Of a stretch of 57,337 bases of DNA, positions 36,002 to 37,539 are shown one piece after another. How positions within the stretch are numbered: the first letter of the stretch is position 1; each line of letters starts with the position of its first letter. Location of the stretch: NCBI GenBank assembly GCA_902568425.1, contig CACFQM010000002.1, forward strand, positions 1 to 57,337, read 5' to 3'. This DNA comes from an uncultured Pelagibacteraceae bacterium. Its GTDB lineage: Bacteria > Pseudomonadota > Alphaproteobacteria > Pelagibacterales > Pelagibacteraceae. Both the position numbers and the translations under genes were made by a program. Under the pieces are notes generated by a model. It was not told where the DNA came from. It saw only the letters and a list, made by a program, of their open reading frames with translations, and made no database searches.

Positions 36002-37012
36002 ATGGTATCATATAAAATGGTACAAAATAAATTTAATATTTCATTTATTACAAAAAAATTCAAAAAATCAAATAACTACAATGCATCTGCTGATTTAATG
36101 ATGTTAGAGGGTGATACGCTGAAAGTAATTAAAAAAATTCCAAATAAAAAAGTTAAATTAATAATCACCTCTCCACCATATAATTTAGAAAAGGAGTATG
36201 AAAAAAAACAATCTCTTGAAGATTATCTAAATAAAATGTCTCCATATATTAAAGAGTTTTATAGAGTTTTAAAAAACGATGGTTCAATATGCTGGCAAGT
36301 TGGTAGTTATGTAAATAAATCAGAAGTATTTCCCCTAGATATATTTTATTATAAAATGTTTAAAGCGTCAGGTTTTAAATTAAGAAATAGAATTATTTGG
36401 CATTTTAACCACGGGCTTCACTCTAGCAAAAGATTATCTGGCAGATATGAAACTTTGTTATGGTTTACAAAATCAGATAATTATACTTTTAATTTGGATA
36501 AAATTAGAGTTCCTTCAAAATATCCTGGAAAAAGAAAGAAAAATTATATTGCAAAAAATAAAAAAGTTTCTGGGAAACCTTCGGGGAACCCTCTTGGAAA
36601 AAATCCATCCGATTATTGGGAAATCATGACAAATGAATGGGAATTAGGTTTTTGGGACATACCCAATGTTAAAGCTCATCATCCTGAGAAAACATTACAT
36701 CCTTGTCAATTTCCAATAGAATTAGTTGAAAGATGTATTTTTGGTTTTACAAACGAAAAAGATTTGGTTTTAGATCCTTATTCGGGCACTGGCTCAGCAA
36801 TATTAGCTGCACTTAAAAATAATAGAAGATCTATTGGCTGCGAAATAAAAAAAAAATATATAAAGATTGCATTAGACAGAGTTAAAAAGTTAGAGGAAGG
36901 TAAACTGCCTTATAGGAAATTTGGCAAACCCATTCATATTCCATCAGGTAAAGAAAAGGTTGCTCAAATACCAAGGGAATGGGTGAAAAAAAATTATAAT
37001 TTCAATTTTTAA
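36002..37012 (+). CDS. DNA methyltransferase (N4-cytosine/N6-adenine, SPPY motif, beta-type order)
   Basis: 'MMLEGDTLKVIKKIPNKKVKLIITSPPYNLEKEYE' (motif IV) and later 'DPYSGTGSAILAALKNNRRSIGCEIKKKY' (motif I). Confidence 0.93.
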   Translation: MVSYKMVQNKFNISFITKKFKKSNNYNASADLMMLEGDTLKVIKKIPNKKVKLIITSPPYNLEKEYEKKQSLEDYLNKMSPYIKEFYRVLKNDGSICWQVGSYVNKSEVFPLDIFYYKMFKASGFKLRNRIIWHFNHGLHSSKRLSGRYETLLWFTKSDNYTFNLDKIRVPSKYPGKRKKNYIAKNKKVSGKPSGNPLGKNPSDYWEIMTNEWELGFWDIPNVKAHHPEKTLHPCQFPIELVERCIFGFTNEKDLVLDPYSGTGSAILAALKNNRRSIGCEIKKKYIKIALDRVKKLEEGKLPYRKFGKPIHIPSGKEKVAQIPREWVKKNYNFNF

Positions 37013-37023
37013 TTCACCTTGTT

Positions 37024-37539
37024 TTACCACGTATCATTTGATTTATTCAAATCACTTCTTGATAATAATCGATTTTTAGAAATTTTTTCTCGATTATTTT
37101 CTCTATATTTTTTTTGCATTGCTTTAACTTTTTCTGGATTATTTTCTATCCATTTTTTGTAAGAAGCTTTAATTTTTTCTTTATTATTTTCTCTCCATTT
37201 TTTTTCCATTTCTTTAACTTTTTCTTTATTATTTTCTCTCCATTTTTTTTCCATTGCTTTAACTTTTTCTGGATTATTTTCTCTATATTTTTTTTGAGAT
37301 ATTTTCGTTTTTTCTGGGTTATTTTCTCTATATCTTTTGTACATTGCTTTAACTTTTTCTGGATTATTTTCTCTCCATTTTTTGTTAGAAGCTTTTATTT
37401 TTTCTTTATTATTTTCTCTCCATTTTTTTTGCATTGCTTTAACTTTTTCTGGATTATTTTCTCTATATTTTTTTTGATAAGCTTTAATTTTTTCTCTTTG
37501 TTGTGTTTTTTTTTGCTTTAAAATTGTATTTTCAATCAT
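37024..37539 (-). CDS. Lys/Glu/Asn-rich tandem-repeat protein (nine 15-aa repeats)
   Basis: 171 aa; units such as YQKKYRENNPEKVKA, MQKKWRENNKEKIKA; ATG overlaps the upstream gene stop (37536-37539). Confidence 0.7.
   Translation of the reverse strand: MIENTILKQKKTQQREKIKAYQKKYRENNPEKVKAMQKKWRENNKEKIKASNKKWRENNPEKVKAMYKRYRENNPEKTKISQKKYRENNPEKVKAMEKKWRENNKEKVKEMEKKWRENNKEKIKASYKKWIENNPEKVKAMQKKYRENNREKISKNRLLSRSDLNKSNDTW
37075..37479 (-). repeat. Nine consecutive 45-bp repeat units inside the repeat-protein gene
   Basis: Derived from aa 21-155 of the ORF, 9 x 15 codons without indels. Confidence 0.93.

Follow-up and report, generated by a model that had tools for sequence, protein, structure and literature searches.

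Introduction

Restriction systems in which a methyltransferase works together with a separate nuclease and a helicase-like ATPase are represented by CglI and NgoAVII (PMC4267653, PMC5737866). DUF3883, in turn, has been named as a restriction endonuclease domain linked to SNF2 proteins in restriction operons, in the company of DUF499 and HEPN proteins (PMC3710099), and a SNF2-family helicase is present in all BREX-related systems (PMC12839542). The locus described here lies in a stretch of 57,337 nucleotides (hereafter, the window) from an uncultured bacterium of the Pelagibacteraceae (SAR11), where a small protein made of 15-residue repeats accompanies a cassette that encodes a ParB-like protein, a SNF2 protein, a NOV_C (DUF3883) nuclease and a beta-class DNA methyltransferase.

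This cassette follows the same logic of methyltransferase, separate nuclease and helicase-like ATPase as CglI and NgoAVII (PMC4267653, PMC5737866). However, those systems have a DEAD-family ATPase and the CglI R protein, whereas the cassette has SNF2 and NOV_C, plus the ParB-like protein and tagged subunits, and a scan of its ORFs with the general Pfam profiles, none of them dedicated to CglI, showed no R-protein domain. With the operons of PMC3710099 it shares the SNF2 helicase and the DUF3883 domain of restriction endonuclease type, but in comparison with these and with the BREX-related systems the two are separate genes here, and they are joined by the ParB-like protein and the beta-class methyltransferase; no match to PglZ or to BrxC/DUF499 was found among the cassette ORFs scanned. 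As for DISARM, the proteins scanned gave weak, helicase-level matches to DrmA and DrmD, and none to DrmB or DrmC. The BglII-type type II restriction-modification systems have the beta-class methyltransferase in common with the cassette, and a BglII-family endonuclease occurs in other cassette loci, but the cassette adds the ParB-like protein, SNF2 and NOV_C, and the window is devoid of BglII (no PF09195 endonuclease among the nine window ORFs scanned). The four-gene set is not named in the literature searched, a coverage that leaves out most subscription papers. The new element is the set of tagged proteins, among whose bodies are modules shared with phages.

The repeat protein and its operon

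The repeat gene is the fifth of a tight operon (Table 1) formed by the genes for a PD-(D/E)XK protein, the ParB-like protein, SNF2, NOV_C and the repeat protein, with gaps of 3, 13, 0 and -4 bp, and the convergent methyltransferase gene ends 11 bp from its end. The preliminary description gave no strand; the ORF runs on the minus strand, from 37539 down to 37024. It was right about the start, which overlaps the NOV_C stop as ATGA, and about the DUF3883 nuclease, which matches PF13020 (NOV_C, E 4e-12) and whose D and E-x-K residues are kept in 12/12 homologues. Likewise, the ATPase motifs are kept in the SNF2 homologues and TSPPYN in those of the methyltransferase. No Rfam or tRNA feature was found near the locus, and sub-threshold matches to DUF3670, MHB, rifampin ARR and similar families were rejected as composition effects.

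Table 1. Coordinates in the window of the repeat gene, its parts and the neighbouring cassette genes.
Feature	Position	Strand	Basis and remarks
Repeat/tag protein, 171 aa	37024..37539	-	ORF and composition
Nine 15-aa units, residues 21-155	37075..37479	-	ORF translation, TRF, AlphaFold2
C-terminal tag LLSRSDLNKSNDTW, residues 158-171	37027..37068	-	End-anchored comparison with other loci
NOV_C/DUF3883 PD-(D/E)XK-type nuclease, 269 aa	37536..38345	-	PF13020, conserved residues; ATGA overlap with repeat gene
SNF2-family helicase/translocase, 619 aa	38346..40205	-	GSGKT and DESH motifs conserved
ParB-like protein, 438 aa	40219..41535	-	Conserved NGNRRL motif; weak Pfam match to ddrB-ParB
PD-(D/E)XK (Cas4/RecB-like) protein, 287 aa	41539..42402	-	Homologues near cassette in L033 and L098
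Beta-class DNA methyltransferase (TSPPYN)	36002..37012	+	Convergent with operon; exchanged by recombination relative to rest of cassette

The translation bears out the exact division of residues 21-155 into nine units that had been read from the sequence. The array was found independently by TRF (period 45, 9.2 copies, 79% matches, score 477), and the self-identity of the protein at a lag of 15 is 0.56, against a maximum of 0.23 in 2000 shuffles over all lags from 5 to 39. The core of the unit is xxKKxRENNxEKxKx, in which positions 3, 7, 8, 9, 11 and 12 are invariant and positions 4, 6 and 14 have one exception each, while positions 1, 2, 5 (Y/W), 10 (P/K/R), 13 and 15 vary. At the DNA level units 1 and 5 are 98% identical, 2 and 7 96%, 3 and 8 96%, and 6 and 7 93%, a pattern that shows the recent duplication of a four-unit block and, once more, of one further unit. 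Given these near-identical pairs, the copy number is young and probably labile. The ratio pN/pS between units is about 1.2, and thus no purifying selection is visible on the units themselves. Two roles suggested earlier, those of a spacer and of a length-variable sensor, find no direct support, although within the gene the number of copies does seem to have changed recently.

A model obtained with AlphaFold2 and three homologues consists of nine 14-residue helices separated by one-residue kinks (pLDDT 86, pTM 0.38); since this pTM is low, only the local helix pattern is trustworthy. Searches with the model gave nothing significant among PDB and viral folds, and the sequence matches in the PDB to RecA and to V-ATPase stalks were discarded as low-complexity helix matches. 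A scan of 85k GTDB genomes, which reaches only close relatives, returned no relative of the protein. Its composition (57 K+R, 25 D+E) gives a net charge of +32 and a pI of 10.2, and these values, as well as the contexts in which zinc ribbons, repeats and HNH domains occur together, fit DNA or RNA binding. The repeats could alternatively bind RNA, or have no specific binding at all. Neither a zinc ribbon nor an HTH head is present in the window protein.

A conserved cassette and its distribution

The set ParB-SNF2-NOV_C-methyltransferase, whose four genes are found as neighbours with profiles built from four loci, is a conserved cassette of Pelagibacteraceae, other Alphaproteobacteria, a Firmicute MAG and virus-labelled contigs. 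Searches with SNF2 and ParB gave close relatives in few of the Pelagibacteraceae searched, always with NOV_C, and the methyltransferase adjoins ParB/SNF2/NOV_C in all of these except the divergent G191. In the SAR11 loci where NOV_C and the methyltransferase converge with no gene in between, their stops overlap by 4 bp (G167, G204, L031, G313 and G388). The four genes were also seen in Bradyrhizobium, a Herbinix MAG, G285, a single cell of the Alphaproteobacteria (L033) and several IMG/VR contigs; a NOV_C scan of viral contigs returned no relative. The surroundings, compared by eye, vary (for example, L031 has ftsZ/mraZ and rpoD/dnaG there, L098 has his genes, and the window has genes of sarcosine-oxidase type), and the cassette therefore appears to be mobile.

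A BglII-family endonuclease (PF09195) is encoded in L033, L035 and L036 (E 1e-15, 2e-14 and 7e-9, respectively), either between the methyltransferase and ParB or immediately ahead of ParB, and this connects the cassette with restriction. It is absent from all four loci that carry tagged proteins (window, G167, L031 and L098), and shared ancestry could explain this absence. Neither BglII nor a tagged protein is found in the cassette loci G204, G388, G285, L034 and the divergent G191, so the tagged subunit is dispensable, or optional, and help in loading or targeting is thus likelier than an essential catalytic role.

Two further observations concern the neighbourhood of these genes. On Azospirillum and Rhizobium plasmids (L101 and L102) ParB-SNF2-DUF3883 lies near genes for a DNA cytosine methyltransferase/DUF4928 (type II) or for Vsr, and is preceded by a protein of about 280 aa with no Pfam match; more than one type of restriction may thus make use of the triad. 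Near the cassette, three SAR11 loci encode a conserved protein of about 187 aa that looks secreted (L024:2702-3265, L031:8009-8572 and L098:6403-6960), and was not seen beside the cassette in the window.

A common C-terminal tag

Eight tagged proteins were found beside the cassette in four SAR11 loci, one in the window, two in G167, three in L031 and two in L098. All eight are basic (pI 9.8-11.2) and all end in a tag of the approximate form D-[IL]-x-K-K-x-x-[LT]-W-stop, with variants. Their bodies differ: that of the window protein and both of those in G167 consist only of repeats, L031a has an HTH head and repeats, L031b an HTH head and zinc ribbons, L098a all three elements, and L031c and L098c share a fourth kind of body with no repeats. 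Whereas the window has its tagged gene joined to NOV_C, those of the other three loci are found upstream of the methyltransferase. The partnership with the operon that the preliminary description proposed is thus strengthened, given that three other Pelagibacteraceae genomes have, on the flanks of the cassette, proteins with repeats of this kind and with the same C-terminal tag; that interpretation overlooked the tag itself, the partnership with a methyltransferase and the unity of the cassette.

The tag was also considered as a DNA or RNA element, and this was ruled out by the fact that its codons differ synonymously between loci and the DNA past the stop is not conserved. In an end-anchored test against the tags of the other loci, 0/316 real C-termini and 0/1000 shuffles reached any of the eight scores, and therefore composition does not explain the tag. 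HMMs trained with one locus left out recover the tails of L031, L098c and G167a and miss those of the window and L098a; the tag is short and the window copy is divergent, and it is the end-anchored comparison, together with the repeats and the locus, that makes the window protein a member of the set.

The tag is nearly restricted to cassette loci. Profile searches in 293 relatives and in 141 genomes of one genus gave convincing matches only in the cassette genomes G000, G167 and G313; none of the weak matches in G158, G155, G021, G129, G048 and G077 is a true C-terminal tag. The chance that both tag-positive genomes fall among the five SNF2-positive ones of the 293 is 2e-4, but two of those genomes had served to train the profile, and what is informative is therefore that the tag is absent elsewhere and that L098 was found without it: this locus was reached via SNF2, and two tagged ORFs lie beside its methyltransferase. 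The linkage of the tagged proteins to the cassette is well supported.

Exchange of the methyltransferase

The genes of the cassette do not share one history. The SNF2 tree places the window with the tag-bearing L031 and G313, and the methyltransferase tree places it with the tagless G388. In pairwise comparisons, the SNF2 protein of the window is 68% identical to that of G313 and 49% (over 519 aa) to that of G388, and its methyltransferase is 89% identical to that of G388 and 53% to that of G313. These values place a recombination breakpoint between the methyltransferase (window:36002-37012) and the NOV_C side. In G388 itself (L099:12273-13254) two ORFs, overlapping and in different frames, together make up the methyltransferase, possibly because of a frameshift or a sequencing error.

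The methyltransferase was thus swapped for one of the G388 type while the tagged gene was kept on the NOV_C side, and therefore the tagged protein stays with ParB-SNF2-NOV_C. Judging from the two trees, the tag is a follower of the ParB-SNF2-NOV_C lineage and not of the methyltransferase. This persistence despite the exchange is the main reason why we infer that the docking partner lies in ParB-SNF2-NOV_C.

Relatives of the bodies in phage proteins

Similar repeats had been said to adjoin HNH domains in phage and viral proteins, and PHROG and tblastn matches agree. The repeat protein matches PHROG 7091 (HNH endonuclease, E 2e-11) and 14214 (E 4e-18), and the repeat unit is found by tblastn in phage genes annotated as HNH or endonuclease VII, where the usual order is often a zinc ribbon, then the 15-aa repeats and then the HNH domain. 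By these matches, the 15-aa repeat is recognisably of a known kind, that of phage HNH proteins. The window protein has the 15-aa unit (KYRENN-type) and the basic character in common with the HNH/endonuclease VII-type proteins of phrog_7091 and phrog_14214, but lacks their zinc ribbon and HNH domain and carries the cassette-specific tag. Two SAR11 genomes (L026 and L027) have repeat-plus-HNH proteins elsewhere; these chromosomal HNH proteins (L026:8059-9729 and L027:5772-6797), with the same repeats or zinc ribbons, are tagless and unlinked to the cassette. Stand-alone arrays also occur outside the window (L002-L006 and L106), and that of the Chlorobiaceae phage CV-1-33 (L106:2519-3133), an array of this same 15-aa unit with no HNH domain, lies upstream of an ERF recombinase gene.

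It might be thought, then, that the gene is what is left of a mobile HNH endonuclease inserted beside the cassette, a repeat part that lost its nuclease and has no function in the operon. The repeats that precede HNH domains in phages and in the two other SAR11 genomes, the match to an HNH family of PHROG and the stand-alone arrays of phages all agree with such a decay, but we consider it improbable: as had been noted, no HNH motif exists in the protein, nor is there a remnant in any frame past its stop; the phage and SAR11 HNH proteins that were read lack the tag, whereas L031c and L098c bear the tag and have no repeats; and the gene is present on the NOV_C side despite the methyltransferase exchange.

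The HTH heads have other relatives among phage proteins. Those of L031a, L031b and L098a (L031:13828-15189 and L098:11894-12946, on the minus strands) share 43-51% identity with a small protein of HMO-2011-type Pelagibacter phages (tblastn E to 3e-13), represented by HTVC115P gp79 and HTVC103P gp85, whose genes lie between terS and terL; relatives are also found in Roseobacter and SAR116 phages. These phage homologues have no tag, and the window protein has no such head, so that of the two kinds of phage-shared modules seen on tagged proteins, HTH head and 15-aa repeats, it bears only the second. A fold search with L098a returned five large serine recombinases among its six best matches, but every E value exceeds 0.5, and the result is suggestive only.

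Proposed function

We favour, tentatively and at somewhat less than even odds, the reading in which the repeat protein serves a cassette of restriction-modification type as an accessory subunit that binds DNA and is docked, through its tag, to the ParB-SNF2-NOV_C part. The basic helical repeats would contact DNA, the C-terminal tag would dock the protein onto the ParB-SNF2-NOV_C complex, and the motor-nuclease would be loaded or retained on DNA left unprotected by the methyltransferase, with a presumed antiphage function. The body would be an exchangeable DNA-contact module (phage-type HTH and zinc ribbons in the related loci) and the tag a constant plug.

A constant tag with variable bodies fits equally well a regulator, in which the tagged proteins would restrain or license the nuclease-motor through the tag, as immunity or control, and DNA binding would be secondary. 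Dosage control would suit both the translational coupling to NOV_C in the window and the arrangement in the other three loci, where the tagged genes come immediately upstream of the methyltransferase. Nevertheless, the cassette is kept in loci with no tagged proteins, and the bodies look like DNA-contact modules and not like known control proteins, for which reason we find this role unlikely. A decoy role, which had also been suggested earlier, is very unlikely. In this reading the tagged proteins would act independently of the cassette and compete for the DNA or the protein partners of phage packaging or HNH proteins. The homology of the HTH heads of L031a, L031b and L098a to the HMO-2011-type phage protein whose gene lies between terS and terL speaks for it, but it leaves the cassette-restricted tag unexplained, and the window protein has no HTH head.

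The reading as a docked DNA-binding subunit can be carried further, to a modular retargeting in which the motor-nuclease takes interchangeable tag-bearing DNA-recognition subunits, built in SAR11 from phage modules (the terminase-adjacent HTH, and the zinc ribbon and 15-aa repeats of HNH proteins) and aimed at sites that are constrained in phages. This extension is speculative and rather doubtful. More generally, a cassette whose accessory subunits have a tag in common and, in sister loci, bear a homologue of that terminase-adjacent protein would link host restriction to the packaging genes of the widespread HMO-2011-type phages, and would provide a testable rule, namely that the tag determines docking and the body determines the target. 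Such a cassette might, moreover, account for the way in which SNF2-DUF3883 nucleases, known mostly from restriction operons, find their DNA. The host of the repeat protein belongs to an abundant kind of ocean bacterium (SAR11), in which the protein accompanies a previously uncharacterised cassette for the modification and cutting of DNA.
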